A stretch of 32,196 nt of DNA from positions 1 to 32,196 of the forward strand of contig JAUSJX010000044.1 in assembly GCA_030647435.1 (NCBI GenBank), written 5' to 3'. This DNA is from Candidatus Rokuibacteriota bacterium. Lineage in GTDB: Bacteria; Methylomirabilota; Methylomirabilia; Rokubacteriales; CSP1-6. The position numbers and the translations under genes were made by a program. Below, piece by piece: positions 3,741 to 25,811 of the stretch; the stretch's first letter is position 1, and every line of letters begins with the position of its first letter. The notes under the pieces were generated by a model. That model was not told the DNA's origin and did not search any database. It saw only the letters and a list, made by a program, of their open reading frames with translations.

Positions 3741-4072
3741 CGAGAGCGACCCTCCTTGGGGAGGACCGGGATGGCCGTCTCACCCTGTCGCTTGCCGTCC
3801 ACCCCGAATCGCTCGACCTTTCCTGCGCCATCGACACGTCCATATCCCGTGCGCCGGCTCATCGTGTCATAGAAGTCCACGCGGCCGGTGTCCCGATCGA
3901 CAACGGCGTATCCCGTGCGGCGCCCATGGGTATCGAAGAGGTCCACTCGCGCGGACTCACCGGCATGCGCGAGCCCCACGCCCAAGACGATGCCGATCAC
4001 CCCAAGACCCTGCTTCGACAGGTTCACGCGGAGCGGGCCGACACGAAAGGACTTCCGGAGAAACCAGCCCAT
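3737..4072 (-). CDS. DUF4236-like protein with repeats, 111 aa
   Basis: The N-terminus (MGWFLRKSFRVGPLRVNLSK, residues 1-20) matches the general form of the short DUF4236 domain. A Gly/Ile/Val-rich hydrophobic stretch follows (residues 23-37). The remainder carries about three copies of a roughly 20-residue unit with the pattern RVD-[LF]-[FY]DT-x2-RRTGY-x2-VD, the third degenerate. The ATG at 4072 is preferred over an in-frame upstream start at 4105 because GGGGGAGG lies 9 bases upstream of it. The gene is coupled to the HD hydrolase by an ATGA overlap and lies 85 bases after the helicase stop on the same strand. The role is unknown. A membrane-associated or sensor part is conceivable. Confidence 0.65.
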   Translation of the reverse strand: MGWFLRKSFRVGPLRVNLSKQGLGVIGIVLGVGLAHAGESARVDLFDTHGRRTGYAVVDRDTGRVDFYDTMSRRTGYGRVDGAGKVERFGVDGKRQGETAIPVLPKEGRSR

Positions 4073-4134
4073 CACACTTGTCCTCCCCCTTGGGAATTCC
4101 CCCACCTCGGCACACGGCGAGTCTCCCTCACCTC

Positions 4135-4153
4135 TGTGACAGGGGAGGTCACA
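4135..4153. promoter_or_regulatory. TGTGAC-N7-GTCACA inverted repeat
   Basis: TGTGAC (4135-4140) and GTCACA (4148-4153) form perfect 6-bp arms with a 7-base spacer. The site lies between the helicase stop codon (4158) and the DUF4236-like start (4072). The arms resemble the general form of CRP/FNR-family half-sites, but no promoter elements could be confirmed, so an operator role is speculative. Confidence 0.3.
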
Positions 4154-4157
4154 CCTC

Positions 4158-5822: not shown

Positions 5823-5960
5823 GGTTCTGCCCTGGGTGTGGGCGCAGGGAGCGTACCACGCGAGGGGGATCGTGCGGTCTGTGACCTTCCCTGTCAGAGC
5901 ACCCGCCTATCCTGCATTCCACAGCACAGAACCCGCAGCGTCATCGAGGAGGAATTGTTC

Positions 5961-6893
5961 ATGCCCCATGCGGCCGAAATCAGTCCGATCGCGCGAATAT
6001 TCGGAAACATCTTGGTAGGCGAGCCCCTGAGGCACGGAGCGCTCACCGTCGTCCCCATGCTCGCGCCCATGCTCACCGAACCCGCGTGGCTCACGCTGGC
6101 CGAGGCCGGCGACCGGGTGCAGGTCACCGAGGTCGACGAGGCGGGCTCCGTCCCCACCCTCAAGGTCGCCAACATGGCCGACCGGCCGCTGCTCCTCCTC
6201 GACGGCGAGGAGCTGGTGGGCGCGAAGCAGAACCGCATCCTCAACGCCACCGTCCTCGTCGCCGCCCGCACCGAGACGACGATCCCCGTGAGCTGCGTCG
6301 AGCAGGGGCGCTGGGGCTACCGCGGGCGCCACTTTGCACCGGGCGACGCCTCCCTCTTCGCCTCCGTGCGCCAGAAGAAAGCGGCCTGGGTGACGCGCTC
6401 GATTCGCGCCGGCCGCGGGCACATGGCCGACCAGGGCGGCGTCTGGGACGAGCTCGCGTCCAAGACCGCCGAGCATAGCGTCGCGAGTCCGACCGGAGCG
6501 ATGCGTGACTTCTACCAGCGGTACGAGGCGGAGATGGCCGACGCGCGCCGGGAGCTTGCGCCGGTGCCGGGGCAGATAGGTTCGCTCGTGTACCTCTCCG
6601 GCCGCTGGGCGGGCATGGACCTCCTGGCCGGTCCGAGCCTCTTCGGGAAGGTTTGGCCGCGCCTCTGCGCCGGGTATGCGGCGGATGCGATTCGCCGGAA
6701 ACCCAGCAGCTGCCTCATGCCGAGCCCGAGCGCGGTGCTCCGCCGGCTCTCGGGGTGTCCCGTCGAAGCAGCCCAGGCCGTGGGCCTCGGGACCGAGTAT
6801 CGCCTCACCGGGCAGACGACTGTCGGCGCCGCCCTCATCGCGGACGATCGCGTCGCCCACCTGATGGCCTTCCCAGTCGTCGGCGCCAGGTAA
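5961..6893 (+). CDS. ARPP-1 family protein, 310 aa
   Basis: The whole protein resembles the ARPP-1 domain, an uncharacterised family associated with ARG/rhodanese/phosphatase neighbourhoods in conflict-type systems. Visible features are a conserved-looking core around residues 60-100 (VANMADRPLLLLDGEELVGAKQNR is positions 70-93), the segment IPVSCVEQGRWGYRG (about 111-125), and a C-terminal half with YLSGRWAGMDLL and the closing HLMAFP. The frame is open far upstream, but ATG at 5961 is chosen because GAGGAGG (5947-5953) gives an 7-base spacing and the upstream part is antisense to the helicase gene. No catalytic residues can be assigned. It opens the plus-strand operon that leads to the AddAB-like pair, although a 150-base gap follows it. 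Confidence 0.75.
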   Translation: MPHAAEISPIARIFGNILVGEPLRHGALTVVPMLAPMLTEPAWLTLAEAGDRVQVTEVDEAGSVPTLKVANMADRPLLLLDGEELVGAKQNRILNATVLVAARTETTIPVSCVEQGRWGYRGRHFAPGDASLFASVRQKKAAWVTRSIRAGRGHMADQGGVWDELASKTAEHSVASPTGAMRDFYQRYEAEMADARRELAPVPGQIGSLVYLSGRWAGMDLLAGPSLFGKVWPRLCAGYAADAIRRKPSSCLMPSPSAVLRRLSGCPVEAAQAVGLGTEYRLTGQTTVGAALIADDRVAHLMAFPVVGAR

Positions 6894-6906
6894 AACTTCT
6901 GTGCTA

Positions 6907-6935
6907 TTGACAAGGCCTTGCGACCCGCCGAACAT
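6907..6935 (+). promoter_or_regulatory. Candidate sigma70 promoter before the TY-Chap gene
   Basis: TTGACA at 6907-6912 is a perfect -35 box, followed after 17 bases by GAACAT (6930-6935), a poor -10 match. It lies about 110 bases upstream of the start at 7044, in the only sizeable gap of the plus-strand operon. The -10 is weak, so confidence is low. Confidence 0.3.
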
Positions 6936-7043
6936 CACGGCACTCCCTGCCGCGGGGGAACCAGCTCACCCGTCAGTTGCAGCGGTGTCTGTCGAGAACT
7001 CGAGCACGACGACGAGTCGAAACGCTGCAAGCAGGAGATGGCC

Positions 7044-8501
7044 ATGAAAACGAAGGCGCTGCTGGCGCCGGTTCCTCACCTCCAGCTCGCGAATGCCCTG
7101 GAGGTGTGCCGGCGCGAGGGAAGGGTTGCCTTCGCCAGTAACGTCTGGGAGCTCTCCGGCGACCTCCAGGCCGGGATGCCCGTCCTCCTCTACGCCTCAA
7201 GAAGCAGCTTGCCCGAGGGCAAAGTCCCTGAGCCCGAGGCGCAGTGGCGTCACCCGCACGTTACCTGGCTGGGCTCCTTCGTCCGGTACGTGTCCGCGGT
7301 CGACGGCCGTCATCCGGAAACGACAAGCTTCCAGCCCACCGTCATGGCCCCGGGCGAGCAGGACCATATTCTGGGCTTCTATGAGGTCGCGGACCTCGAG
7401 CAGTTACCCGAGGAGCGATGGATCCCCGTTGAGCAGCTCCGGGACCAAGACGACCGCCCGTACACGCAGGCGTTCATCCCCGGACGCCCGATCATCGTCT
7501 TCTGGGATCGGCCGACCGAGGATGCGGCGACCACGCCACCGGCCAGCAGGTCAGAGCCTTCCGATGGTGCGGAGTCTTCGTGGTCCAGCTTCACCCAGCA
7601 TCTCGCGGCCGGCATCGCGAAAATGCAGCGCGATCAATTTCTCATTCTCACGGTCACCCCCCTTCCAGATGGGGCCGAGCGCCCGTGGTACTACGTGCAG
7701 TTCGCCTGCGGCGGCGAGGAGGGCTTCCGAGCCGAAGCGGTGTCGAATAAGTTCCTGGCCGATCGGTGGAAGCTTCCGGAGAAGGCAGCCGAGACACTCT
7801 TCCGGCTTGGTTGGCATGCCCCCGAGCCCAGCGCCGAGCTCAAGGGGGGAAAGGTTAACTACTGGTCCGACTGGCCGGCCCCTCCGCACGCCGCCGCGAT
7901 GGCACAACTCGCCGTGTCGACGCTTCGCCGTGTGTACGGGGTGGCCTCGTCGGACCGGCTCGAGTATAAGTACTTCGACAAGGCCGGTCAGCAGCTGGAG
8001 CTCGCTGACCTCGGCCTTCGCCGTGAGGTTGCCACCAAGGGCTGGGACGGTACCGTGGAGCGCCTCCGACCAATCGTGGAGAAAACGCTCCGTGAGGTTC
8101 TGCACGTTGGCGAGCTCAAATACGATGAGCACGGCGACATTCCCATCCGGTTCGGCAGCGCGATGGTGTTCGTCCGTCTGGTTGGCGGGGAGACCCCGAA
8201 GGTCCAAGTCTTCTCTCCGCTCCTCTGGGAGGTCTCGTCGACCAGCGGCCTCGTCGAGGCGCTGAACGACATCAATACGCGTCTCTCGTTCGGACGCGTG
8301 TTCTGGGACGGCGAGCAGGTCATCGCCGCGATCGACCTTCCGGCTCCTGGACTGTCGGGCGAGTACGTCGCGCGGGCCTGCTTCGAGATCGGCTCCCTGG
8401 CGGATCACTTCGACGAGGAGCTTGTTGAACGCTTTGGCGGCAAAACGATGTTCGGCGTGTCGAAAGTGTCGAAGCCGTACGAGCCTCCCGGCTACCTGTG
8501 A
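7044..8501 (+). CDS. TY-Chap / YbjN-like chaperone-fold protein, 485 aa
   Basis: Three parts can be seen. Residues 1-155 form an unassigned globular domain (VAFASNVWELSG, GMPVLLYASRSS, FIPGRPIIVFWDRP). A Pro/Ser/Ala-rich linker spans about 155-175. Residues 175 to the end form a tandem chaperone-like region: a segment starting WSSFTQHLAAGIAKMQRDQF resembling a TY-Chap domain, and a C-terminal YbjN/type III secretion chaperone-like domain (IPIRFGSAMVFVRLVGGETPKVQVFSPLL within about residues 370-400). Such domains are known from predicted conflict systems, with unknown biochemical function. ATG at 7044 follows a GGAG at a 6-base spacing. The next gene starts 15 bases after the stop, so co-transcription with the WYL regulator is likely. 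Confidence 0.65.
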   Translation: MKTKALLAPVPHLQLANALEVCRREGRVAFASNVWELSGDLQAGMPVLLYASRSSLPEGKVPEPEAQWRHPHVTWLGSFVRYVSAVDGRHPETTSFQPTVMAPGEQDHILGFYEVADLEQLPEERWIPVEQLRDQDDRPYTQAFIPGRPIIVFWDRPTEDAATTPPASRSEPSDGAESSWSSFTQHLAAGIAKMQRDQFLILTVTPLPDGAERPWYYVQFACGGEEGFRAEAVSNKFLADRWKLPEKAAETLFRLGWHAPEPSAELKGGKVNYWSDWPAPPHAAAMAQLAVSTLRRVYGVASSDRLEYKYFDKAGQQLELADLGLRREVATKGWDGTVERLRPIVEKTLREVLHVGELKYDEHGDIPIRFGSAMVFVRLVGGETPKVQVFSPLLWEVSSTSGLVEALNDINTRLSFGRVFWDGEQVIAAIDLPAPGLSGEYVARACFEIGSLADHFDEELVERFGGKTMFGVSKVSKPYEPPGYL

Positions 8502-10177: not shown

Positions 10178-13100
10178 ATGGACCCGTTCGCCTCCCGGCT
10201 CGCTGAGCTCTGCCGCACCGAGCGCACCCGCGCCAAGTGGGTGGTCGTGCCCTCGCACGCCCTTGGGCACACGCTCGGTGAGCGGCTCGCGCTCGCAGGT
10301 ACGAGCTGGGCGAACCTCCGCTTCACCACCCCGGTCGATCTCGCCCTACCGATGGCGGCTCCGTTCCTCGTCGAGCGCGGAATCGATCCCGCTCCAGACG
10401 AGATCGGCCCGGCCCTGATCACACGGCTGCTTCTCGAGCTGCCGGGCGCGGTCCCCGTCTACTTCCGGGAGATGGCCGAGCAGCCGCGGATGGCCGAAGC
10501 GTTGTGGGCCACGATCCGCGAGCTGCGCCTGGCGGGGATGCGTGCAGCTGATCTTCGCCTCGAGGCGTTCACGAGCGCCGCCAAACATGCCGAGCTTCAG
10601 GCCCTGCTCACCGCGTACGAGGAACACTTGGCGACGCGCAAGCTCGCCGACACTGCCGATGTCTACCGCGAGGCGCTCCAGCACCTCGATATCTGCCACG
10701 TCCGCCCCGAGGACCTCTGGATCGAGCTGCCCGGCGCCATCTGGGCTCCGCTCCAGCAAGCACTCCTGGACAAGCTTCCCGCGCTCCGGATCACGCCGCA
10801 CACGCTCCGAATCCCCGGCCTTCCGGAGCCCGCACGTCTGCGCGGCGCGGTCGAGTCGCTGGAGCCATCGCTTCGCGCCGACTCTGACTTGCTCGCCTTT
10901 CTCATGCGGCCAGGCGATGCGCCGGCACCGAAGGGTGACGGCAGCCTGGCCATGTTCCGCGCCGGTGGCCGGGAAGCCGAGGTCGAGGAGGTTTTCCGGC
11001 GTGTCCTCGCAAGCGGTGCGCGCCTCGATGACGTCGAAGTGGCCTGCGCGTCGGCCGACTACGTCACCCTCCTCTGGGAAAAGGCGCAGCGCCACGGCTG
11101 GCCCGTGACCGTCGGCCCCGGCCTCCCGGTCACGCTGACGCGGCCGGCGCGCGCCCTGCTGGCCTTCTCAGAGTGGGTGGAGGGTGGCTACCCGGCTGTC
11201 GGACTCCGCCGCCTGCTCCAGTCCGGCGATGTCCAGCTGGATCTGGCCGATGGCCCCTCGGCCGGCCAGGCCGCGCGACTGCTCGCGCAATCCGGGGCGA
11301 CATGGGGACGCGAGAGCTATGCCCCGGCCATGACAGGCCTCGCCCGCTCGTACCGGCAGCGCGCAGCCGACGTCGAGAACGACGACGACGAGGCGCGAAC
11401 GCGCTACGTCGAGCGCGCCGCGCAGGCCGAACGACTGGGCGCCTGGATCGCCGGGATCCTGGAGCTCGTCCCACCGGCGGCGGCGGACGGCCGGCTGCCC
11501 CTGAGTGAGCTGATCGACGGATGCATCACGCTCGTGCGCGGCACCGCGAGCAAGCAGAACGAGATGGACGGCGCCGCGGCGGCCGTGCTCGCGGATGCGC
11601 TCGTGGCGCTGCGGGCCGTCGGGTCCCTCGCGCGCGGCGCGCGCGAGGCGTTCGCGCTGATCCGCCACCAGATCGAGCCGCTCACCGTGGGCGCCGATCG
11701 GGCGCGGCCCGGCCATCTCTTCGTGACCATGCTGCGCCAGGCCGGGCATGCCGGCCGGTCCCAGACCTTCGTGGTCGGGCTCGAGGAGGGCCGCGTGTTC
11801 CCAGTGCTCATGGAAGACGCGGTGCTGCTCGACGACGAGCGGCGGGCCCTGAGCCCCGCGCTGCCGACCTCCGCGGATCGTGTGGGGGAAGCGCTCTACG
11901 CGGTGGTCTCTCGCCTAGCGGCGCTCGGCGGCTCGGTGTGCCTGAGCTTCTCCTGCCGCGATCTCCGGCGGCACCGTGAGACCTTCCCGTCCTGGCTCCT
12001 CCTTCAGGCCCTGCGCGTGGTCAAGCGACACCCGGACTGGACGTATCAAGATCTGAATCGGGAGCTGGGCGAGCCCGTGTCGCTCGTTGCGTCGGGGGCC
12101 GACCGGGCGCTGAGCGACGCCGGGTGGTGGCTCGCGAAGCTCAATGGCCTGGGACCCGTGGTCCTCCCGAGCGTGCACGCCCACTTCCCCTGGCTCGCCC
12201 AGGGAGAAGCGGCCGAGCTGGCACGAGAGTCCGACGTCCTCACCGCCTATGACGGCCTCGTCCCGGCGGCCGGGCCTCGGCTCGATCCGCGCGCAACGGG
12301 TCACGCCATCTCCGCCACGGCGCTCGAGGACCTCGCCAAGTGTCCGTTCCGGCACTTCCTCAAACGCGGCCTGAAGCTCGATGCCACCGAGGAGGCCGAG
12401 CCCGATCGTGACCGCTGGCTGGGCCCGGCGACGCGCGGCTCGTTGCTCCATGGTCTCTACGCGGCCATCCTGCGGGAGCTGCGCGAGCGGAAGGAGCAGG
12501 CTGATCCGAAACGGCACGGCACCTGGGCCCGCGAGGTGGCCGACGCCCGCTTGGCGGAGCTGCGCGCGCTGATCCCGCCGCCCTCGACCGATGTCTTCGA
12601 CCGCGAGCGGCAGGAGCTACTCCGGGACCTCGACCTCTTCCTCCGTCTCGAGGCGGCCGCAAAGGAGCGTCGGCCCGTTGGCTTCGAGGTCTCGTTCGGC
12701 GGCGGAGCCACCGAGGGCGAGCCCCTGGCGCAGGCCGAGCCCGTCATGATCGACCTGGGTACCGGCCTTCGCTTCGCTCTGCGCGGACGGATCGACCGGA
12801 TCGACCGGCTGGCCGATGGCAGCTACGAAATCATCGACTACAAGACGGGCCGGTATTGGCCGGACAACTACACGGGAACGTTCCAGGGCGGCCGTCTGCT
12901 CCAGCATGCCCTCTATGCTCTCGCCGCGACCCATCTCCTTCGGCGCCAGGATCCGAAGGCGCGTGTGAGCGCCAGCTCGTACTATCTGCCGACGGCCCGC
13001 GGCCAGGCCGAGCGCGCCACCTTTCCCGCCAAGGCGGCGGGCCTCGAGGATGTGCTCCGCGACCTGTTCGACATCGTGGGCCAAGGCCTCTTCGTCCACA

Positions 13101-13240
13101 CCGCAGACGAGGATGACTGCAAGTTCTGCGAGGTGGGACGCGCGTGCGGGCGCGACCCCTATGCCCGCGCGGAACGGAAGCTCGAGAACGATGCCAATGA
13201 CTCGCTCAGGCCGTACTGGAGGCTCGGCGAGCATGAGTGA
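10178..13240 (+). CDS. AddB/RexB-like PD-(D/E)XK exonuclease subunit, 1020 aa
   Basis: Predicted partner of the downstream AddA-like helicase in a two-subunit end-processing nuclease. The N-terminal two-thirds is an inactive helicase-like scaffold. The position where a Walker A could occur (VVPSHALGHTLGERLA, residues 24-39) has no lysine. The C-terminal nuclease has D873 (GRIDRID) and D887-Y-K889 (EIIDYKTGRYW). Cysteines C722 (AKCPFRHF), C981, C984 and C990 form the C...C-x2-C-x5-C pattern of an AddB/Cas4-type [4Fe-4S] cluster clamping the nuclease domain. Length is near that of AddB proteins (about 1000-1170). The stop overlaps the AddA-like start by 8 bases. A housekeeping recombination role is possible, but the WYL/HD/ARPP-1 setting suggests an accessory version. 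Confidence 0.85.
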   Translation: MDPFASRLAELCRTERTRAKWVVVPSHALGHTLGERLALAGTSWANLRFTTPVDLALPMAAPFLVERGIDPAPDEIGPALITRLLLELPGAVPVYFREMAEQPRMAEALWATIRELRLAGMRAADLRLEAFTSAAKHAELQALLTAYEEHLATRKLADTADVYREALQHLDICHVRPEDLWIELPGAIWAPLQQALLDKLPALRITPHTLRIPGLPEPARLRGAVESLEPSLRADSDLLAFLMRPGDAPAPKGDGSLAMFRAGGREAEVEEVFRRVLASGARLDDVEVACASADYVTLLWEKAQRHGWPVTVGPGLPVTLTRPARALLAFSEWVEGGYPAVGLRRLLQSGDVQLDLADGPSAGQAARLLAQSGATWGRESYAPAMTGLARSYRQRAADVENDDDEARTRYVERAAQAERLGAWIAGILELVPPAAADGRLPLSELIDGCITLVRGTASKQNEMDGAAAAVLADALVALRAVGSLARGAREAFALIRHQIEPLTVGADRARPGHLFVTMLRQAGHAGRSQTFVVGLEEGRVFPVLMEDAVLLDDERRALSPALPTSADRVGEALYAVVSRLAALGGSVCLSFSCRDLRRHRETFPSWLLLQALRVVKRHPDWTYQDLNRELGEPVSLVASGADRALSDAGWWLAKLNGLGPVVLPSVHAHFPWLAQGEAAELARESDVLTAYDGLVPAAGPRLDPRATGHAISATALEDLAKCPFRHFLKRGLKLDATEEAEPDRDRWLGPATRGSLLHGLYAAILRELRERKEQADPKRHGTWAREVADARLAELRALIPPPSTDVFDRERQELLRDLDLFLRLEAAAKERRPVGFEVSFGGGATEGEPLAQAEPVMIDLGTGLRFALRGRIDRIDRLADGSYEIIDYKTGRYWPDNYTGTFQGGRLLQHALYALAATHLLRRQDPKARVSASSYYLPTARGQAERATFPAKAAGLEDVLRDLFDIVGQGLFVHTADEDDCKFCEVGRACGRDPYARAERKLENDANDSLRPYWRLGEHE

Positions 13241-16200
13241 GCGACGGCGCCTCCCCGACCAGCAGGCGCGCGACCGCATCGAGGCCGCGCTCGACATCAA
13301 CCTGCTCGTGGAGGCGGGCGCGGGCTCCGGCAAGACGCAAAGCCTGGCGCGGCGGATGGCCGCGGGCATCGCTGCGGGGGTGTACGAGGTCGAGGGCATG
13401 GCGGCGGTCACCTTCACCCGCAAGGCGGCCGCCGAGCTGCGGGCCCGCTTCCAGCTCGAGCTGGAGAAGCGACTCGGCGCGGACGACGACCCCGCTCGCC
13501 GTGAGCGGCTCCAGGTCGCACTCCGGCATCTGGAACGGCTCTTCGCGGGGACGATTCACGCCTTCTGCGCCCATCTGCTGCGCGAGCGGCCCGTCGAGGC
13601 CGGCGTGGCGCCGGGGTTCACGGAGCTGGACGAGATCGAGGATGCCGAGGTGCGCGGGCGCGCCTGGCGCGACTACCTCGACCGCGAGCGCGCGCTGGGG
13701 TCGCGGCTGCTGGCGGAGCTTCAGGACACCGGCATCCGACCGGCCGATCTCGACGAAGCTTTCCGGACAGTCTGCACCTTCGCCGACGTCACCTTTCCTC
13801 CGGGCGATCGCGAAGCGCCCGATCCGGCGCCGGCCTGGGCGGCGTTGGATCAGTTCTGGCAAGCGCTGAGCGCGCTCCTCCCCGACCCCTGCGCGCCGGA
13901 CACGACCTGCAAGGTCCAGAGGGCCGCCCGGCGCTATCGGGGGCTGCTTCGCGTCGCGGACCGGGAGCGCCCGGCCACGCTCGCCCAGCTCCTCGACTGC
14001 TGGAGCGGCAAGCTCTCGATCACGCAGAAATGGTGGCCCGGCGGCTCCACGGCCACCAAGGCGCTGAAGGCTCGGATCGATCGTCTTCTCGGCGATTTCC
14101 AGGAGGCAGCCGTCCATCCCTTCCTCGCGGCCTGGGGAGCGTACATCTATCGCCTCGCGATCACCCTGCTGTCGGCCGCCCGCAACTTCGCGAGCGAAGC
14201 GCGGCGACGGGCGCTCACCCTCAACTATGGCGATCTGCTCCAGGTGGCGGCGCGGCTCCTGCGCGACAACCTCCCCGTGCGAGCGGCGCTTCAGCGCAAG
14301 TATCGCTGGCTCTTCGTTGACGAGTTCCAGGACACCAATCCGCTTCAGGCCGAGGTCATCCTGCTGCTTGCTGCCGAAGCGCGCGGCGAGGCGGACTGGA
14401 CCCGCGTGCGGCCTCGCCCGGGCGCGCTCTTCGTGGTGGGCGACCCCAAGCAGTCGATCTACCGTTTCACCGGAGCCGACATCGACATCTATAGCCGCGT
14501 GCGCGACATCATCCAGCGCGAGGGCGGCGAGGTTGTCACCCTCACCGCCTCGTTCCGATCCATCCCCGCGTTGTGCGAGTGGGCCAACGGCGTGTTCCCG
14601 GACTTCTTTCCTCCCGAACCCACGCCGCAGCAGCCGGCGTTTCATCCCCTCGAGCCCGTGCTCCCAGGCGGCCAGGCGAGCCGGTCGGGCCTCCGCACCC
14701 TCACCATCCCCGACAGCATCGAGAAGGACGGGGTGCATGCCGCCGACGCCCAGGCCATCGCCCGCTACATCCGAGCGGCCGTGGAGAGCGGGACCAACGT
14801 CTGGAGCGACTTTCTCATTCTCACGAGGAAGAAGAAGGGGCGGCTTCACGAGTACCTGGCCGCGCTCGACGCGCTCCACATCCCGGCATCCGTCACCGGC
14901 TCGGTTGCCTTCAGCCGCTCGCGTGAGGTCTCGGTCCTGGCCGACCTGCTGCGGGTTCTCGCCGACCCGGACGACGGTGTCGCCCTGGTCGGACTTCTGC
15001 GCGGACCGCTCTTCGGCGTGAGCGACGAGGAGTTGTTCCAGCATCACGAGGCCGGCCTCGGCTTCATCCTGACGGCCCCGCTTCCCGATGAGGCCTCGGG
15101 GCCCGTCGTCGACGCCATCAGGAAGCTCCAGCCCATGTTCAAGTTGACCCGCACCCTGCCCGTCGCGGCCGCCGTGGAGCGCATCCTCGAGGAGACCGGG
15201 ATCCTTGCGCGGGCCGTGGCCGTCACGCCGGGCGCCGCCGAGGCCGGCGATGTCCTGTACGCCCTCGACCGCGTGCGGCAGATCACCGAGGTTGGCGGCA
15301 CCCTCGCGACTGCCGCCGAGGCGCTCGACAAGGATTTCGAGGCCGCCGAGATCGAGTCTATTCCGCTCGAGCCCGGCCGGCAGGATGTCGTACGCGTGAT
15401 GAATCTCCACAAGGCCAAGGGCCTCGAGGCGTCCGTGGTCTTTCTCGCTGACCCGCTCGCCGGCGTCAAGGCCCGCGCGGGCGTGCGCGTGATCCGCGAG
15501 GGCGCCCGAGCCACTGGCTACCTGCGCCTGATCCGTACGTGGGGCGAGGGCCGCTCGGACGAGCTGGCCGAGCCCGCGGGCTGGGAGGAACACGCGGCGG
15601 CGGAGCTGGCTTATGTCGAGGCCGAGGAGAAGCGTCTCCTGTACGTGGCCGCCACGCGCGCCAAGGATCTCCTCGTCGTCAGCCGCTGGGCCAAGGATGG
15701 AAAGGGCGAGCGCCCGTGGGAGCCGCTGGCCGCCTATCTTGCCGCGGCGCGCGAGCTCAAGGTCCCGCCCGCGATTGTGGTGACACCTCGCGCCCTGCCA
15801 GATCTGAGTGTGGGCGCGCGCGCGGCTGCCGAGTCCGCGCGCAACGCCGCTCGCGAGGCCGCCGCTCAAGCTTCATGGGTCGTCGAGTCCGTCACGGGGA
15901 CCGCCCATCGGGCCGGTCCCTACGGCCACCCGATCTCGGAGGGCCGTACCCGCGAGCCCGACACCGGCATGGCCTGGGGCAGCCTGATTCACGCCCTGCT
16001 CGAGCACGCCATGCGCGGCCCCGCCCGCGACCGCGCTCACCTGGAGCGTCTGGCCAATTGGCTCACCGTCGAGAACCCGGAGCTTCGTCGCGTCGTCCCG
16101 GAGGCGCTCGACACCGTCGAGCGTGTGACGGCGTCGGAGTTCTGGCAGCGGGCAACGGCCGCGGACCAGCGTCTCGTGGAGGTCCCGTTTGCGGTCAAGG

Positions 16201-16448
16201 TCGAGGCGGGTGACGGGCCTCCGAAGATCCTCCACGGCGTAATCGACCTGGCGTTCAGAACGTCGGCAGGCTGGGAGCTAGTCGACTACAAGACGGACCA
16301 GGCGACCATCCACTCACTTTCCGCTCGCTACCATGGCCAGGTTCAGGCGTACTGCCGCCACTGGGCGGTCGCCACTGACGCGCCCATCAGGTCGGCGGCG
16401 ATTTACGCAGTCCGCACCGGCGAGGTCTCCGAGAACCTCCAGCCGTAA
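13233..16448 (+). CDS. AddA-like UvrD helicase with C-terminal nuclease, 1071 aa
   Basis: A superfamily 1A helicase-nuclease. Walker A is GAGSGKT with K34, followed by motif Ia VTFTRKAAAEL, motif Ic GTIHAFCAHLLRERP, Walker B D363-E364 (FVDEFQD), motif III VVGDPKQSIYRF, motif IV ASFRSIPALC, a late motif at RVMNLHKAKGLEASVVFLAD, and motif VI LLYVAATRAKDLLVV. The C-terminal RecB-type nuclease has WGSLIHALLEH from residue 915, D1005 (GVIDLAF) and D1018-Y-K1020 (VDYKTD). All catalytic positions look intact. ATG at 13233 lies inside the end of the AddB-like gene, typical of stoichiometric addB-addA coupling. The reading frame is open upstream, but only as a shadow of the preceding gene. It is the last gene of the plus-strand operon and converges on the minus-strand gene ending at 16496. 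Confidence 0.9.
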   Translation: MSERRRLPDQQARDRIEAALDINLLVEAGAGSGKTQSLARRMAAGIAAGVYEVEGMAAVTFTRKAAAELRARFQLELEKRLGADDDPARRERLQVALRHLERLFAGTIHAFCAHLLRERPVEAGVAPGFTELDEIEDAEVRGRAWRDYLDRERALGSRLLAELQDTGIRPADLDEAFRTVCTFADVTFPPGDREAPDPAPAWAALDQFWQALSALLPDPCAPDTTCKVQRAARRYRGLLRVADRERPATLAQLLDCWSGKLSITQKWWPGGSTATKALKARIDRLLGDFQEAAVHPFLAAWGAYIYRLAITLLSAARNFASEARRRALTLNYGDLLQVAARLLRDNLPVRAALQRKYRWLFVDEFQDTNPLQAEVILLLAAEARGEADWTRVRPRPGALFVVGDPKQSIYRFTGADIDIYSRVRDIIQREGGEVVTLTASFRSIPALCEWANGVFPDFFPPEPTPQQPAFHPLEPVLPGGQASRSGLRTLTIPDSIEKDGVHAADAQAIARYIRAAVESGTNVWSDFLILTRKKKGRLHEYLAALDALHIPASVTGSVAFSRSREVSVLADLLRVLADPDDGVALVGLLRGPLFGVSDEELFQHHEAGLGFILTAPLPDEASGPVVDAIRKLQPMFKLTRTLPVAAAVERILEETGILARAVAVTPGAAEAGDVLYALDRVRQITEVGGTLATAAEALDKDFEAAEIESIPLEPGRQDVVRVMNLHKAKGLEASVVFLADPLAGVKARAGVRVIREGARATGYLRLIRTWGEGRSDELAEPAGWEEHAAAELAYVEAEEKRLLYVAATRAKDLLVVSRWAKDGKGERPWEPLAAYLAAARELKVPPAIVVTPRALPDLSVGARAAAESARNAAREAAAQASWVVESVTGTAHRAGPYGHPISEGRTREPDTGMAWGSLIHALLEHAMRGPARDRAHLERLANWLTVENPELRRVVPEALDTVERVTASEFWQRATAADQRLVEVPFAVKVEAGDGPPKILHGVIDLAFRTSAGWELVDYKTDQATIHSLSARYHGQVQAYCRHWAVATDAPIRSAAIYAVRTGEVSENLQP

Positions 16449-16495: not shown

Positions 16496-17101
16496 TCACT
16501 CCTTCGCCCTCGACTTCACCAGCATCTCGTCTACCGCATCCGACAGCGTGAAGAGCTCCTCGAAACCCCTGGCGGCGAATTCGAAGAGCTCGTCCGGACC
16601 CGAGATCAGCCGAACGCGTAGCTGGTCGTCCGTGTCCGTCAGGTACTTCCCCAACGGCGCGTCGGCATCGTCGGTGTCGGCGTTGAGCCAGGGCTTGGCC
16701 CTATCGCCGAGCACGCGCCGCAACTCGCGCGCGAACTCGATCCGCTCCGCGTCCTTCATCTTGAGAAACTCCAGGTTCTCGGTACAAACCCACAGATATG
16801 GATGGGTGTCTTTGATACTCCGGTAACCCATCGGTGCAAAGCTTCCGACGACGTAGTAGACCTCGGCCTCGTCCTTGCGCCGATTTACCCAGGCGGGTTT
16901 CCACGCATAGAATTCCGCCCTCTTCGCGTCGGTCTCGAGTGCGTACCCGCGCTCCTCGCCCCATTTCTCGAGACGGTTCCCCACATCATCGATCAATTCC
17001 CCAATTCGGCCCTGTAGTTCGTCGTGCGCCTCCATCAATCCGATCACGTCATGCCATCGTTCCAAGATCAGCTTGTCAACGTTCGTATACTCATCCGCCA
17101 T
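16496..17101 (-). CDS. Unknown 201-aa protein, last gene of the DUF6361/PLD/helicase cassette
   Basis: No family recognised. The protein is acidic and soluble. Residues 1-55 are helical (ERWHDVIGLMEAHDELQGRI...), the centre has many aromatic residues (AEFYAWKPAWVNRRKDEAEVYYVV, about 62-86, then YLWVC), and the C-terminal third is helical with Asp-rich stretches (NADTDDADAPLGKY). GGGGAGG is 7 bases upstream of ATG at 17101. The gene starts 49 bases after the helicase stop on the same strand, so it is probably the fourth gene of that operon. It may be an adaptor, inhibitor or small accessory subunit. This is inference from position only. Confidence 0.6.
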   Translation of the reverse strand: MADEYTNVDKLILERWHDVIGLMEAHDELQGRIGELIDDVGNRLEKWGEERGYALETDAKRAEFYAWKPAWVNRRKDEAEVYYVVGSFAPMGYRSIKDTHPYLWVCTENLEFLKMKDAERIEFARELRRVLGDRAKPWLNADTDDADAPLGKYLTDTDDQLRVRLISGPDELFEFAARGFEELFTLSDAVDEMLVKSRAKE

Positions 17102-17150
17102 GTGTGTGCCTCCCCGATCCTCAGATTAGCGAGCGCCCCGCGGTTCGCCG

Positions 17151-20100
17151 TCACGTCCTGATTCGTACGAATTCGTTCAGCAAGGCGTGGTATCCCTCGA
17201 CGCCTGCGTGCGGCACGACGTCCGGTCTGGTTCGCACAAACATATCAAGGAGTTCACGTAGGCGAACCGTCATGTCGGCTTCTCCGCCTAGTGCTGGTGA
17301 CACGGCCATAGTCGCATCTATAGCCTTGCCGATCTCGGGCAGTGCGATGAACTGGTCCAGCACTTCGCGGAGCCGCTCGATCGAGACAGTTGTCTCTCTC
17401 GCCCGGCCTCGATCTACCCCGTGAGCCCCGGCCTGCGCCTGCATCGCCCCTACCTGGTGGAGCAGTTCGCGCAGACCAGCGACATCCATCGCCTTCGGGA
17501 GGCGTCGTCCATCCCTCCTGGCAACTCCGCGAAGCTCGGCGTAGCGGTCGAGCAACGCGGCGACTTGGTCGGTCATGGGCGCCGGACCCATTGATGTCGT
17601 CAGGCTCCAGCGGTCGGGCTCTGTACGCACGGCACCGCGGTCACCGGCCAAGTCGGTTCCGAACCCCGGCAGTTTACGCTGAACCGAAGGCGGCGGGGTC
17701 AAATTGATCCTGAGATCCTCAGCTGCCCGCTTGCGTGCAGGTTCATCCAGCTGCTGCAACAGGAAGTCGACAACGTCTTGCTGCCTGGCCTGGCCAAAAG
17801 CCATGCGATAGACCGCCAGCGACCTCCGGATCGCGTCTGCACGCGCGGCGTCCCGGCTGAGCGGCAGCGCGAGCACGTGCCGCTCGATGCGCGCGGCACC
17901 GGGGTCGTCCACCAGGTACAGCCAGTACGGACTAAGGCCCGAGTCGTCGCGCATGTCAGTCGCCTCGGCGGCGGCAAACATGCGCGCCCAGGGATCCGGG
18001 CCCTCGCCCGCCGTGAGTACGGCAGCGCCGTGTTTTCGCGCCACGTTCTTGCGAACGGCATGCCCCTTATACCGATGCACTCGGCCCTCTCGCTGCTCGA
18101 GGTCTACAGGATTCGACGGCACGTTCCAGTGCACCACTGCGTGGCAGTAGGGATGGAAGTCGAGACCCTCCTGTCCGACGGATGTGGAGCACAGCACGAA
18201 CGGCCAGAACGGCGAGTTGAAAGCGCGCTGCACGGACCTGTTTCGATCAACCCCTCTGACGTCCTCAAGGCCCTGCCCACCGTAACTCACGGCGAACCGC
18301 GTCCGGAACCCGAGCTTCTGCGTCGCAGGCAGGTGTCCCGTTGCGTCGAGTTGTACATCGTCGGCCGTCAACGTGGCTGTCATGATGGTCACACTCTCGA
18401 CCATACGCCCGGCGACTTTGTCCATCGCTGCGGTAAGCGTTCGGTCCCGATCGCCAATGGCACCCGACAGGAAGTGCGCGTACTCGTCAAGGACGGCCTG
18501 CAACCCACCTCGAGCTGCGTATTCGAGCACGCGGCGCCAGTATGCTTCGCCAGAGTCGATCACAGTGGTGCGCGTGATGGCGGAGATGACCTCCACTTCG
18601 TTGAACAGCGAGCGGAGCGCGTCCGCGACCCGCCCGGCCGCATTGCGCGTGGCGATCTGCGGCGCCAGGTGCAATCCGCCCACGACCCGGCACAGTGCCC
18701 GGAGCGCGGTTACCGCCGGGCCGCCGATCGCGAGCCAAGCGACTACCTGCGCAAGATCTGCGGGTCGTAGGCCAAGCGTGACGCCGCCCTCCACGAGCGT
18801 CTTCGCCGCCGCGACATGTTTGGCCCAAGCGCTGCCTGCCGCCTGTGACTCCTCGGCCAACGCACCCACGTCTTCGTCTAGGTCACGACGGCGATCAGAG
18901 CCCTCGCCTCGCCAGTCGGTCGCCAAACGAGGCTGCTCAAACCAGGCGCGCGTCGCGGCATTGTGGCGATGCAGATCCAATAGGATGGGCGCAGCCCAGT
19001 ACCAGCGTTCGTCCGCCCGCCCCGTCGCTTGCTCCTGGCCCGGCAACTCCCGCAGTGCCCTTTCGACCCGGCGCTCGGTTTCTTCTCGAACCGAATCAAG
19101 TGAGGGCAGGATGCCGTCCTGATGACGGCGCAGATCAGACGCGATCGCCAGCGGATCGCAGAGTTGGGCGAGCACGATCGAGGGGTACATGAGTCCCAAT
19201 GTCGTCATGCCACCAGGTCGCCCGCCGTCGTCCCTGAACTGAAGCAGTCGGGACCGGCCCCTCCGCGTCCCCCTGGTGTTCGCGGCGGGCTCGCCCTCCA
19301 GTGGAACACCAAACAGCCGCCGCTCCGCTTCGTAGCTGAGCAGCGTCGCCACCACTTTCGGCACGACCTGCCAAGCGGAGAAGACCAGGCTCTTGGTGAA
19401 CGTCGCGTGGTCAGCGTTCGCAAATGGGCCCTCGAGCCCGTAATAGGGCAACGCCGGTGGGATCCAGAACAGCTCCCCCACGCCTCGATCGAGGGTGACG
19501 GCGAGGAGCGCCCGCAAGCGAGCATTGGCAGGATCAATCAGCCGGTACGATTCGATGTCGGTCCGCGAAAGGATGGCATCCGGAACGCTCCTCAGGGCAT
19601 CCTGCAGAGCCGTCCCGGCGCCAGGACCCCTGACCGCCTCCAGGACCTGGCGCTTGAGCTGGTAGTCGTCCATGAAATTCAGCAGATAAGAGGCCGACTT
19701 CCAGTACTCCAGCGTGTCGCCATGGCCAACTGCACGACCGATCCGTTGTAGGGCGAGGTAGTGCGACACATCTGCCGGCCGCAGCTGGAGCGTGGGTGGC
19801 ACGTCGACGAGCATGCCGCTTCGATCCTCGGTCACCGCCAACCGCTCGGTTCGAACCATCACGCGCCGCAGGCGGTTTTCGATTTCCTGCCTCCTCCGCA
19901 CGACGGAGTCTGCCGTCTGGGCGTTGTAGGTGAACAACTGCTGCCCATAGGTCGACAAGAGGCGGCGGATGTCGGCAATCGCCTCTGGCGGTTCGGCTTG
20001 CTCTCCGCTTCCGCCATGCAGGAACTCGAGTGTCTTGATGAAGTCGCCGAAATGGTCATCCCCCTCGGCGTCCTCGTGCAGCGTGTACATCTTGTAGGGC

Positions 20101-21008
20101 GTCGCCGACAGTAGCAACACACGCGCCTGCTGCCGGCCTTCCTTGTCGGCGTAGTCGAACAGCGCCCTCGCCAACTCGGCTGCGGGATCATCGCCGTGCA
20201 GCAGATCCTTGAACCGCTGGAACTCGTCCAGGATGATGAGGTCAGGCTCGAGCGCGTTGACACACGTCCTGGCGAGCGTGCCGCGCAGCTCGCCGACAAT
20301 CGCTTTCCGTTGGCGGCTTTCATCCTCACCGAGCTTCTCTTTTCGTCCCAGGCGCTGGCTCAGCTCCAGGAATCGGGCCTGGAGGGTCGGCTGGCCGTCA
20401 CGCTCGGCCGCATCGCCAACCCGGTTTAGCGCTTTCTCGAAGCTCTCGCGCAAGCCGTCGTTAAGCGTCATCGGGGCCTTGACGCGCTCCTGGAACCGCG
20501 TGCGCTCGACGCCGCCGGCCAGCAGCGATACCACCCCCGGATCCCCCGTCTTCCACGCCTTCGGCAGCATCCAGTACAGCAGGGTGCGTTCCTCCCACCT
20601 CCCTGTTCCCCCACGCACGTTGAACGACGTGCCGGGTGTAAACGAAATGAAATTCACGTCCGGGCTCAAGTGCGGGAGATCTCGTGGCAGGAGCGTGATG
20701 CGGTCCGGCAGCGTCTGTTCCCTCCTGTCCGTCAGGTTCAAGCTGGCGATGTTTTGCTGGGCGATGCTGGCGTTCGAGCAGATGTAGACGATGTCCACCC
20801 GCCGGTCGTTCTTGGCGCGCAGGTGCTCGATCGCTCGAGCGATAAGGCCGCGCGCCACCATCGTCTTGCCCAGCCCCACCTCGTCGGCCACGAGGAACCG
20901 CCGCGTGGGTGGCGTGTCGCCGTACATCCGCTGAAAGACATAGTCCACGGTGTCGCGCTGAAACGGCTTTAGTTCCCCAAGAATTCGGGCCGTGTCGATC
21001 GGGATCAT
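17151..21008 (-). CDS. Large SNF2/SF2-type DEAD/DEAH-like helicase, 1285 aa
   Basis: A predicted double-strand DNA translocase or remodeller. The N-terminal ATPase lobe begins with LKPFQRDTVDYVFQRM and has Walker A DEVGLGKT (K48), D261-E262 in IILDEFQRF, and the SAT motif at S301 (LLLSATPYK). The second lobe, around residues 930-975, has CSTSVGQEGLDFH and the arginine-rich motif VI region DLEQREGRVHRYKG. Long insertions separate the two lobes (about residues 330-900). A C-terminal extension of about 150 residues has repeated short helical units with the pattern LRELL/LREVL. ATG at 21008 overlaps the TGA of the PLD-like gene by 4 bases, so the frame's upstream extension is not used. Such helicases next to PLD-like nucleases occur in several defence systems, but this architecture does not match one I can name. 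Confidence 0.85.
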   Translation of the reverse strand: MIPIDTARILGELKPFQRDTVDYVFQRMYGDTPPTRRFLVADEVGLGKTMVARGLIARAIEHLRAKNDRRVDIVYICSNASIAQQNIASLNLTDRREQTLPDRITLLPRDLPHLSPDVNFISFTPGTSFNVRGGTGRWEERTLLYWMLPKAWKTGDPGVVSLLAGGVERTRFQERVKAPMTLNDGLRESFEKALNRVGDAAERDGQPTLQARFLELSQRLGRKEKLGEDESRQRKAIVGELRGTLARTCVNALEPDLIILDEFQRFKDLLHGDDPAAELARALFDYADKEGRQQARVLLLSATPYKMYTLHEDAEGDDHFGDFIKTLEFLHGGSGEQAEPPEAIADIRRLLSTYGQQLFTYNAQTADSVVRRRQEIENRLRRVMVRTERLAVTEDRSGMLVDVPPTLQLRPADVSHYLALQRIGRAVGHGDTLEYWKSASYLLNFMDDYQLKRQVLEAVRGPGAGTALQDALRSVPDAILSRTDIESYRLIDPANARLRALLAVTLDRGVGELFWIPPALPYYGLEGPFANADHATFTKSLVFSAWQVVPKVVATLLSYEAERRLFGVPLEGEPAANTRGTRRGRSRLLQFRDDGGRPGGMTTLGLMYPSIVLAQLCDPLAIASDLRRHQDGILPSLDSVREETERRVERALRELPGQEQATGRADERWYWAAPILLDLHRHNAATRAWFEQPRLATDWRGEGSDRRRDLDEDVGALAEESQAAGSAWAKHVAAAKTLVEGGVTLGLRPADLAQVVAWLAIGGPAVTALRALCRVVGGLHLAPQIATRNAAGRVADALRSLFNEVEVISAITRTTVIDSGEAYWRRVLEYAARGGLQAVLDEYAHFLSGAIGDRDRTLTAAMDKVAGRMVESVTIMTATLTADDVQLDATGHLPATQKLGFRTRFAVSYGGQGLEDVRGVDRNRSVQRAFNSPFWPFVLCSTSVGQEGLDFHPYCHAVVHWNVPSNPVDLEQREGRVHRYKGHAVRKNVARKHGAAVLTAGEGPDPWARMFAAAEATDMRDDSGLSPYWLYLVDDPGAARIERHVLALPLSRDAARADAIRRSLAVYRMAFGQARQQDVVDFLLQQLDEPARKRAAEDLRINLTPPPSVQRKLPGFGTDLAGDRGAVRTEPDRWSLTTSMGPAPMTDQVAALLDRYAELRGVARRDGRRLPKAMDVAGLRELLHQVGAMQAQAGAHGVDRGRARETTVSIERLREVLDQFIALPEIGKAIDATMAVSPALGGEADMTVRLRELLDMFVRTRPDVVPHAGVEGYHALLNEFVRIRT

Positions 21009-22870
21009 TTCGCGTCGCACGCTGTCCGTTGCTTCCAGATCGTGTCGATGGGGCCCCAAATCTCATCGAACCCTGGCGGAACGACCGTCTCGCCTGGGTC
21101 GCGATGTCCGAAGTCCTTGAGCATCGCTGCCACGTGGACGAGCTGATCCGGCGTGCGGTCGAGGGTTCGAAGCAGCTGTTCGAGGAGACCCTGGGTTGGC
21201 ATCGATTGGCTCGCTTCGTCAGGCGACAACCTACCATCGCCCGATGAGCCGGCGACCAGCGCTCCGAGCTGGGCCGGATCGACGCTGCCGTCGCCGAGCA
21301 GCAGAAGCAGTAGGCGAACGAACTGACGCGGCGTCCTGACCATCTCACGCAAGACGCGCTCCACGCGATTGGCGGGCATCCCGTCGGCAGGGAGGTTCAG
21401 CACAAGGTCCTGGGGCGTCACGCCGCGATGTGACCTCAGCTCGATCCTGAACGCAAAGAAGCTCGTGAGTGCCTCGAACGACACATCGTCGAACTGCGCC
21501 ACGGGCCCGGTGAGGGTGTTCACGTTCTGGGCATGTCCATCGTTGAGGGTGATGGGCCAACACGTGACCGTCGCGTCGCCCGGCATCTTGACATCGCCCT
21601 CGGTGGCGCGAAGGAGAATGTCGTAGCGGTCGCCGTCCCGCGCAGTGATCTGTGCGCGCATGTCGGCATCAACGAGGGCTGTCCGTGTCGCCTCGATCGC
21701 TTTCTCGATTTCGTCTCTGAATGGATCAGGCGCTATCGCTACACGCTCCCCGGCATCCTGAAGCAGGTCAACGAGCCGCTGCGTATCCGTCTCGTGCGTC
21801 ATCAGGCTGTCGATGCCTAGGTCACTGCGAGACCCTGTGAGCTGCACCAGGAACTCGACGTTTCGCGAAAAGGCCGCATCCGTGGCGTTCGCGGACCCGG
21901 TCCACACGAGGGCCGTCCTGCCGTGTTCGCTCACGTAGCACTTGGCGTGCAGGTCACCAAGTTGCACGGCCTCGGCCAGCGAGGCTCCACTGCCTTCCTC
22001 GTCGATGGGCGTCAGCTCAGGTGTCGCGTCGGGGTTCAGCATCCAGAACCGCTGGTATCCGGCAGGGCGGCGGTCGAGAGAGCTCAGCGCCATGTCGGTC
22101 GAGACCAGGGTGGCCTCCTTGTGCCTGCTGGAGAGACGCTCGAGACAGCTGCGCGTGACAAAGGGCGACACCACGAGCATTCGGTCGCCTGCAGACTCGA
22201 ATGGCCACTCGCTGTGATCCTTGATCCCAAGCGGCCAGAAGCGCAGCGCTTCGACGCCGGGTGGGGTGGTGAACACGACCCGGCGCACCTCGGCCGCGAG
22301 TTTCTCGACGCCTTCCCGGAGGCCCGCATCGATGTGGCGGGCAAGGCCCGGCAGCGCCATCAGGAAGTCGGCAAGGGGGGCACTGTCTTCGACATCGCGA
22401 CCGGGCGCCGTCGTACCGTCGAGGGCCAGCAGGGTGTCCCACGACCGGGCCACCGTCAGGTTCCGGCTCAGGCACAGCATGCGGAACGCGGCATGACCAT
22501 CGTCTGCCACGTACCGCAGGACCCACACCTTAGGGTGGAACACCCCACCGCCCGGCGAACGGCAACCGACAACGGCCCGCTCAAGGTGCACCGACAGCCG
22601 ATTGTGAGACCTCGGGATGCTGATCCGGCCCGCCTGGCAGAACATCACGACGCGCGGCGCGTACCTGCGCAGGCTCCCCAGCAGCTCCAGCGAATTAGTT
22701 CGACTTTTCTCGTTCTCGTCGAGCAGATCGAACCAACTGAACGCTAGTGGCACCGTCAGCAGCGTCATTAGGTCGAGCGAGAACGTGGTCCCAACACAGA
22801 AGTCGAGCCGATGGCCATCGGGCGGGCGCAGGGCATCAAACAGGAGGGTCCGGTTGCCTGGCTCAAGCAT
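21005..22870 (-). CDS. Phospholipase-D-like (HKD) protein, 621 aa
   Basis: This protein has two HKD-type motifs, as in PLD-family nucleases that act through a covalent phosphohistidine. Motif 1 is H112-x-K114 (FHPKVWVLR) followed by CLSRNLT. Motif 2 is H308-x-K310 (LHAKCYV) followed by WTGSANATDAAF. The aspartate of the canonical motif is replaced by the Ser/Asn-rich region, as is common in bacterial defence-type PLD proteins. The first 110 and last 200 residues are unassigned. ATG at 22870 overlaps the DUF6361 stop by 8 bases, and the stop overlaps the helicase start by 4. The three proteins are thus likely made together. Substrate is probably DNA or RNA rather than lipid, because it has no signal peptide and is fused to a helicase operon. 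This is inference. Confidence 0.82.
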   Translation of the reverse strand: MLEPGNRTLLFDALRPPDGHRLDFCVGTTFSLDLMTLLTVPLAFSWFDLLDENEKSRTNSLELLGSLRRYAPRVVMFCQAGRISIPRSHNRLSVHLERAVVGCRSPGGGVFHPKVWVLRYVADDGHAAFRMLCLSRNLTVARSWDTLLALDGTTAPGRDVEDSAPLADFLMALPGLARHIDAGLREGVEKLAAEVRRVVFTTPPGVEALRFWPLGIKDHSEWPFESAGDRMLVVSPFVTRSCLERLSSRHKEATLVSTDMALSSLDRRPAGYQRFWMLNPDATPELTPIDEEGSGASLAEAVQLGDLHAKCYVSEHGRTALVWTGSANATDAAFSRNVEFLVQLTGSRSDLGIDSLMTHETDTQRLVDLLQDAGERVAIAPDPFRDEIEKAIEATRTALVDADMRAQITARDGDRYDILLRATEGDVKMPGDATVTCWPITLNDGHAQNVNTLTGPVAQFDDVSFEALTSFFAFRIELRSHRGVTPQDLVLNLPADGMPANRVERVLREMVRTPRQFVRLLLLLLGDGSVDPAQLGALVAGSSGDGRLSPDEASQSMPTQGLLEQLLRTLDRTPDQLVHVAAMLKDFGHRDPGETVVPPGFDEIWGPIDTIWKQRTACDAK

Positions 22871-24080
22871 GGGCGCCCTCCAGGCTGTTCACAACATCGT
22901 TGAGAAGGATCTGGGCGTTTGACCAGCGGTAGTCGAGCCGCCCTAGTCCAGAGGATCCGGTCCAACGGTCGCGCGGCTGCTGATTGTCGAGCCTCGCGAG
23001 CGCCCCCTTCAGTTGAACCTCACGCCGGCGAATCAGATCGTGCGCGGCCTGCAAGTCCACGACCCTGCGTGGGCCGGGATCGTCGAGCGCCAGGTCGATC
23101 CACGCGTTGACGAAGGTCTGCGTATTCTTCCCGGGCTTCACATCGGCCTGGGCCAACGTCATCCAGAACGCCTGCCGGTCCCAGGCGCGCAGCTCGTGTT
23201 CGCGCCGTTCAATCTCGTCGCACCACTCTTCGAACAGTCTGCGCACCTCGGTTTCCCGATTCCCCATGTTGCGCAACTGGCAGAGCCGTAAGTTGTACAG
23301 GATGAGGGCTCCGGCCATGACCTCCGAGAAGTTCCTCGCGTGCACCAAGGGCTGCGCCAGCGGCTCTGGCAGGTGAGGGGCCAGCTCGTGTGCCCAGGCG
23401 AACGGGGCATCGCTGGCGGCGTTCATGTGATCGAGGTAGTACCGCATCAGCGAACTGCTGGCGTTCGCCCGAATGCGTTCCCGGACGTACTCGGCTTCAC
23501 GGAGCGTCAATCGAAACGACGCCCTCTCCGGAAACCCGGCCGGCACTGGCGGCACACCGGCATGCCAGTTCGGGGGTGTCTCCTCGACGCGTTCCTTGTC
23601 AACGTTCTTAGGCGACGGCGACTGAGCTCGATAGAAACGGTCAAGACTGCGATGGTATTGGTCCTGCGAGAAGGGCGACGTCCGGATGCCCAACCTCCGC
23701 AGACCGTTCCAGTAGATGTTCGACGGCAGGCGTTTCAGTTTATCCCGCGATCGCTCGCCGATGACACCGCCCGCGTCCTCCTGCGCCGCAAGCAGGGCGT
23801 CGATAAGACCGACCTCGATCTTCTTTGCGCGGCCGACGATGTCAGACGAGCGAACCCGGTCGCCTTCGAGCTGCAGGTACATCCACGGGATGAACAGGAA
23901 GTAACGGGCGCGCCTCTGGAGCGAACCCGTCCCCGGGAAGAACAGGTCGGCGAAGCCGTCGCGAATCACGCTCAGGCCCACTTCGTCGCGCGTTCCGTGT
24001 TCACGGAAAGCGTCGATCGCATCGGTCAAGGCGTCCTGCTGAGCTTTCGAATAGTCGACCCACGTGAAGACTGATGGCAT
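22863..24080 (-). CDS. DUF6361 family protein, 405 aa
   Basis: The protein resembles the uncharacterised DUF6361 family, which I know from operons with PLD-like and helicase proteins. The N-terminus FTWVDYSKAQQDAL, the segment DGFADLFFPGTGSLQRRARYFLFIPWMYL (residues about 42-70) and the later ERASFRLTLREAEYVRERI look like the conserved core. It is largely helical with many aromatic and Arg residues, and no enzyme motif is visible. A target-recognition or structural role is possible. ATG at 24080 has no close ribosome site: AGGAGG at 24099-24104 is about 18 bases away. Initiation may be weak, or the message may be leadered differently. It is the first gene of the minus-strand cassette. Confidence 0.75.
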   Translation of the reverse strand: MPSVFTWVDYSKAQQDALTDAIDAFREHGTRDEVGLSVIRDGFADLFFPGTGSLQRRARYFLFIPWMYLQLEGDRVRSSDIVGRAKKIEVGLIDALLAAQEDAGGVIGERSRDKLKRLPSNIYWNGLRRLGIRTSPFSQDQYHRSLDRFYRAQSPSPKNVDKERVEETPPNWHAGVPPVPAGFPERASFRLTLREAEYVRERIRANASSSLMRYYLDHMNAASDAPFAWAHELAPHLPEPLAQPLVHARNFSEVMAGALILYNLRLCQLRNMGNRETEVRRLFEEWCDEIERREHELRAWDRQAFWMTLAQADVKPGKNTQTFVNAWIDLALDDPGPRRVVDLQAAHDLIRRREVQLKGALARLDNQQPRDRWTGSSGLGRLDYRWSNAQILLNDVVNSLEGAHA

Positions 24081-25580: not shown

Positions 25581-25657
<77 letters not shown>

Positions 25658-25701: not shown

Positions 25702-25811
25702 GGCCCCCTCACCCTACCCTCTCCCCACTGGGGAGAGGGTAATTGTGGGCGCTCCCCTCTCCCCAGTGGGGAGAGGGGAACTGTGGGCGCTCTCTCTTGG
25801 GGAGAGGGAGC
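25702..25811. repeat. REP-like palindromic array, three 38-bp units
   Basis: Two perfect 12-bp-arm palindromes of the CCCTCTCCCC/GGGGAGAGGG type lie at 25716-25740 and 25754-25778. The third unit, near 25792-25808, is truncated. The period is 38 bp and the spacers read AATTGTGGGCGCTC and AACTGTGGGCGCTC. The first 39 bases (25702-25740) recur at 31867-31905 with one difference. Lying after the cupin stop, the hairpins may also end the minus-strand operon transcript. Confidence 0.85.

Follow-up and report, generated by a model that had tools for sequence, protein, structure and literature searches.

An Azaca anti-phage locus with four genes in a Candidatus Rokuibacteriota bacterium, and a candidate chaperone-like partner for the repeat tail of ZacC

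The anti-phage system Azaca (ZacABC) has been attributed to Millman et al. (2022), as a system bearing a phospholipase D (PLD)-type protein (PMC10952713), and its ZacC component was entered among the superfamily 1 and superfamily 2 (SF1/SF2) helicases of defence systems in a study of Hachiman. In the open literature we found no paper on DUF6361, nor on the mechanism of Azaca. In chaperone addiction (toxin-antitoxin-chaperone, TAC), the antitoxin carries a short C-terminal sequence to which a dedicated SecB-like chaperone binds, and sequence and chaperone together can be transferred to unrelated proteins (PMC5105189); in CmdTAC the chaperone also senses a phage capsid protein (PMC11618068). Here we analyze a stretch of 32,196 nucleotides (nt) from a Candidatus Rokuibacteriota bacterium (contig JAUSJX010000044.1, the whole of it referred to as the window), whose positions 16496-24080 hold the three genes of Azaca followed by a fourth gene, G4. 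We estimate at roughly 0.6 the probability that this locus is a four-gene variant of Azaca in which a chaperone-like G4 protein binds the C-terminal tail of ZacC.

Four open reading frames (ORFs) lie in a row on the minus strand, in the order zacA-zacB-zacC-G4, and both the double-HKD and the SF2 helicase motifs are intact:

22863..24080, minus strand, zacA, DUF6361 protein of 405 residues (PADLOC ZacA profile aligned over 1-394 of 396, E 1.8e-119; Pfam DUF6361, E 4e-58; AlphaFold2 model with a predicted local distance difference test score, pLDDT, of 90)
21005..22870, minus strand, zacB, PLD-type nuclease of 621 residues with HxK motifs H112/K114 and H308/K310 (PADLOC ZacB profile aligned over 1-584 of 586, E 1.5e-161)
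17151..21008, minus strand, zacC, SNF2-like SF2 helicase/translocase of 1285 residues from the ATG (PADLOC ZacC profile aligned over 5-1016 of 1019, E 0)
16496..17101, minus strand, G4, fourth gene, 201 residues, putative chaperone-like partner of the ZacC tail (from gene order and the AlphaFold2 model)

All four genes had been placed here by a first-pass annotation made from the sequence, and the two overlaps it reported among the first three can be read directly, 8 nt between zacA and zacB (ATGCTTGA) and 4 nt between zacB and zacC (ATGA). The gap between zacC and G4 is 49 nt, with GGGGAGG ahead of the G4 start. An alternative, longer TTG start of zacC at 21059 gives an ORF of 1302 residues, of which the ZacC profile covers residues 22-1122. 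The earlier calls of a DUF6361 protein, an HKD nuclease and a helicase were borne out by the Pfam scan of the trio, which returned DUF6361, a PLD-like half motif and helicase domains. The same annotation matched the combination to no named system and suggested that it might be undescribed or only catalogued; this has to be revised, because PADLOC (matches from PADLOC-DB 2.0.0) names all three core genes, and the trio is the already catalogued system Azaca. The likeness extends to all three genes, their order and adjacency on one strand, the full-length profile matches and the PLD and helicase motifs, in agreement with the single operon with a defence function proposed earlier, and the products may also form a single protein complex. 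The window differs from Azaca as described by the presence of G4 and by a repeat tail of ZacC, 90-180 residues in the loci that have it, beyond the end of the PADLOC profile. The helicases of DISARM and Dpd (DrmD, DpdE) show a distant likeness to ZacC, but are outscored by a wide margin by the ZacC profile. We rejected membership of DISARM or Dpd: neither DrmB nor a methyltransferase was matched among the four genes, as the first-pass annotation had stated for the DrmA/DrmB pair and a methyltransferase, and the helicase and PLD cross-matches (DrmC, DrmD, DrmA) were weak.

The trio was compared with 87 other Azaca loci and with the loci found from G4, designated here by L numbers. A scan with the ZacB profile gave 80 loci in many bacterial phyla and in archaea, nearly all with zacA-zacB-zacC in that order where the contig was long enough; Azaca is also carried on plasmids, for instance in Cronobacter, Bradyrhizobium and Halomarina. 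The arrangement of the trio is not due to chance, since the same gene order recurs in about 80 loci of many phyla, and neither is that of the four genes, since all four recur together in six loci. The HKD motifs of ZacB (H112/K114 and H308/K310, with G325-S-x-N) are at least 97% conserved over 84 ZacB proteins, and the same holds over 74 ZacC proteins for the Walker A lysine K48, the DEFQ motif (261-264) and motif VI, QREGR. These conserved catalytic residues point to an ATP-driven helicase and a PLD nuclease, and the order in which the two would act is one that we infer. The AlphaFold2 model of ZacA is all-helical and of high confidence, and gave no match against the PDB, which does not make its fold new.

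The fourth gene had been said to belong to no recognised family, and indeed PADLOC, Pfam and NCBIfam gave none for it, while PHROGs gave no significant match. Three of the 80 scanned loci contain it (L013, in genome G007, L014 and L040), and two more, L096 and L102, came from searches at the level of whole genomes and clades. With the window this makes six Azaca loci, in each of which G4 stands directly after zacC; in L096 and L102 it overlaps zacC by 4 nt. Within the window's own phylum, ZacB and G4 were found in exactly the same two of 95 genomes, a result obtained again when the search was repeated with profiles. No G4 was found in plasmids and phages by tblastn, nor in scans of viral contigs; four further phylum samples gave 0/246, 0/246, 0/200 and 0/201 genomes, but these samples had no positive control and are weak evidence. 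The G4 proteins of the Azaca loci are 41-51% identical, and their invariant positions, occupied by hydrophobic residues, Pro, Gly, Trp or Arg, do not make up a catalytic set. In L040 (also L098), positions 3117-6726 contain a decayed four-gene copy, in which zacC is broken near the helicase C-terminus and the G4 start is disturbed, with the last tail motif still readable. Where present, G4 is closely tied to zacC and to its tail of LREL-type repeats, and for this reason is probably a genuine accessory and not a gene that lies there by chance. Thus, of the unit of four genes suggested by the first-pass annotation, the trio stands, in about 80 loci of many phyla, whereas G4 is not a general part of it, being present in six loci of one clade and missing from 62 intact ones. 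G4 plus the tail is a new accessory variant of Azaca, the core of which was already known.

The LREL repeats noticed earlier at the C-terminus of the helicase correspond to five copies of a motif within residues 1147-1285:

17154..17690, minus strand, ZacC C-terminal tail, residues 1107-1285, with five LLDxFxxxR-type copies (tail absent in 62 Azaca loci that lack G4)
17523..17570, minus strand, tail motif copy 1 (DQVAALLDRYAELRGV)
17433..17480, minus strand, tail motif copy 2 (AGLRELLHQVGAMQAQ)
17331..17378, minus strand, tail motif copy 3 (ERLREVLDQFIALPEI)
17220..17267, minus strand, tail motif copy 4 (VRLRELLDMFVRTRPD)
17154..17198, minus strand, tail motif copy 5 (EGYHALLNEFVRIRT)

In the loci with G4, ZacC runs some 90-180 residues past its usual end (LRINLxPP), and this extension contains a helix-like motif, with consensus LxxLLDxFxxxR, in two to five copies with variable linkers between them. 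The motif is present in all six zacC genes accompanied by G4, one copy surviving in the decayed L040, and it was recovered in each of the five intact tails by matrices built from the other loci, most weakly in L096. The motif tail is absent from all 62 Azaca loci without G4 in which the zacC end is intact and followed by at least 600 nt of sequence; their ZacC is of about 1090 residues. Two of these 62, both planctomycete, have a ZacC with an unrelated C-terminal extension of 190 residues, with neither motif nor G4 (L033, 15151-15753; L058, 15157-15759); the idea that this extension might be a fused G4 received no support from hhalign.

The AlphaFold2 model of G4 (pLDDT 82) presents a helix, four strands, a helix, a strand and further helices. 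This arrangement may weakly resemble the beta meander with flanking helices of the TY-Chap/YbjN/type III secretion chaperone fold (PMC9503650), and among the matches obtained for the model with VIA-align were DR_1245 (Z 5.6), CesT (4.7 and 4.6), 3cxj (4.5), 3epu (4.1) and 1k3e (3.9), together with unrelated matches of similar height. The recurrence of the type III secretion chaperone/YbjN fold among these weak matches is suggestive only. A comparison with TAC and CmdTAC can be drawn in logic, as an analogy: a C-terminal tail and a small, possibly chaperone-like neighbour gene, in a pair able to sit on unrelated proteins. In those systems the chaperone is SecB-like and the tail belongs to the antitoxin, while here the tail is on a helicase (or, in the locus L103 described below, on a nuclease) and G4 had no match to the SecB families of Pfam and NCBIfam. 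In the variant that we propose, ZacC, as an SF2/SNF2-like translocase, would engage phage DNA and link its hydrolysis of ATP to ZacB, the PLD-type nuclease, while the all-helical ZacA would serve as an adaptor, these roles being taken from family knowledge. G4, a small, non-enzymatic and presumably chaperone-like protein, would bind the LLDxFxxxR helices of the ZacC tail; this binding could stabilise ZacC, or else keep the helicase inactive until G4 is titrated away by infection.

In a tree of ZacC built without the tail columns, the six loci with G4 form one clade (Shimodaira-Hasegawa-like approximate likelihood ratio test support 99), which argues for a single acquisition of G4 and tail within Azaca. 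Terminal ZacC branches in this clade measure 0.44-0.76 changes per column, and judging from these sequences, the tail and G4 appear to have arisen together once and then to have been kept together over deep divergence. The confinement of G4 to one clade would also fit a canonical Azaca with a passenger, an unrelated gene captured once in the clade ancestor next to a tail that is a neutral repeat expansion; this explanation also agrees with the lack of G4 in 62 other intact Azaca loci, and with a copy number in the tail that ranges from about two to five, as expected of drifting repeats. We nevertheless consider it unlikely, given the joint retention of G4 and tail through the divergence just described, the 4-nt overlap of zacC and G4 in two loci and the recurrence of the pair of G4 and motif on a GmrSD protein.

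This last case is L103 (genome G144), where a G4 homologue 32% identical to that of the window is found with no Azaca present. It overlaps the gene for a protein of 670 residues of the GmrSD type IV restriction family (DUF262/DUF1524), with GmrSD_N at 9-252 and GmrSD_C at 460-603, whose last residues read SVAESLLDEFARVRNA and include the motif SLLDEFARVR; its end, SVAESLLDEFARVRNAASK, is close to the tail motif ATISTLLDEFARIRDA of L014. Scores as high as that of this tail, or higher, were obtained for three of 689 control C-termini, two of which are duplicates of one protein, and for 19 of 20000 shuffles. Close plasmid relatives of the protein do without this tail and without G4: of six, four stop at 620-635 residues with no tail, and two carry tails of another kind that lack the motif. 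It is conceivable, and we offer it tentatively, at somewhat less than even odds, that G4 and the LLDxFxxxR tail form a control module that is portable: the chaperone, not of the SecB type, and its peptide tag would move between unrelated bacterial defence effectors (the Azaca helicase, the GmrSD nuclease), and would make their activity depend on the chaperone or let them sense infection through it.

The small size of G4, its position directly downstream with translational coupling, and its partnership with two potentially self-toxic nucleases would also suit an inhibitor, that is, an immunity-like (antitoxin-like) regulator holding ZacC, or the GmrSD protein of L103, inactive through the tail until infection releases it. 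CmdTAC, in which the capsid protein pulls the chaperone off (PMC11618068), offers a precedent for such release, but Azaca occurs elsewhere with neither G4 nor tail, so the core needs no inhibitor of this kind, and we regard this explanation as quite improbable. That G4 is not a chaperone but a specificity subunit, which the tail recruits and which senses phage or DNA, is the hardest to sustain: its presence in some Azaca lineages only recalls the variable sensors of defence systems, but no DNA-binding or nuclease family match was obtained for G4, and its conserved residues look structural.

Several results weigh against a chaperone-like G4 that binds the ZacC tail. A Foldseek search with the G4 model gave no significant match, with nothing below E 0.5; the best VIA-align Z score, 6.0, corresponded to an unrelated Mediator subunit, and the likeness in fold is weak. 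Sequence profiles give no support to membership of the TY-Chap superfamily: the Pfam TY-Chap models did not match G4, and hhalign of G4 against the TY-Chap1/3 regions encoded in the window gave a probability below 1%. The co-occurrence of G4 and tail inside Azaca, confined to one clade, is a single event. Outside Azaca, the association of G4 with the motif comes from one case, L103, which had been seen before a prediction was set. That prediction, made before L112 and L113 were opened, was that the gene upstream of G4 would carry the motif, and it failed or was untestable in L112, where G4 is preceded by a truncated Fic gene that lacks the motif. The G4 gene of L113 comes after sbcC and is itself truncated. 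We also observed in L112 (9578-11104) a remnant of 63 residues of the C-terminus of the G4 homologue 0.7 kb further on, in an island with AddAB and an HmaA/DrmD-like helicase.

As for the genomic surroundings, the G+C content is 59% in G4, 63-65% in zacABC and about 70% in the flanking housekeeping genes, and the lower values would be in keeping with a foreign origin of the four genes. Two neighbours are convergent to the operon:

10178..13240, plus strand, AddB-like PD-(D/E)XK nuclease (Pfam PDDEXK_1, 8e-35)
13233..16448, plus strand, AddA-like UvrD helicase with a PD-(D/E)XK domain (Pfam UvrD-helicase, 5e-46)

AddA-like genes were found in the flanks of 12 of the 87 other Azaca loci (L008, L014, L019, L024, L026, L034, L036, L039, L047, L065, L072 and L086); in every case they share the strand of the zac genes, and an AddB-like nuclease often accompanies them. 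In several of them (L008, L024, L026, L034, L072) the AddA-like gene is an apparent operon neighbour of Azaca. The recurrence of this AddAB-like neighbour suggests that Azaca often lies beside a DNA end-processing machine. Also convergent to the operon in the window are genes for an HD protein, a WYL regulator, a TY-Chap1/3 protein and an ARPP-1 protein. The ARPP-1 domain protein adjoins the TY-Chap1/TY-Chap3 protein and the WYL regulator (4731-8501, plus strand); ARPP-1, TY-Chap and WYL are parts of ADP-ribose conflict systems (PMC9503650). On the other side, at 25714-25789, a 38-nt repeat occurs in tandem, each copy being a near-perfect palindrome (CCCTCTCCCC..GGGGAGAGGG), near a tRNA-Met gene (25581-25657). 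As a sign of integration at this gene, a direct repeat of the tRNA end was looked for in the window, and none was found.

For the family, these results imply that detection models ending at ZacABC miss G4. The gene makes a mechanistic question testable, i.e. how the helicase-nuclease is kept in check, and the module of a tail and its partner may be common to unrelated defence systems, as chaperone-addiction tails are to antitoxins.

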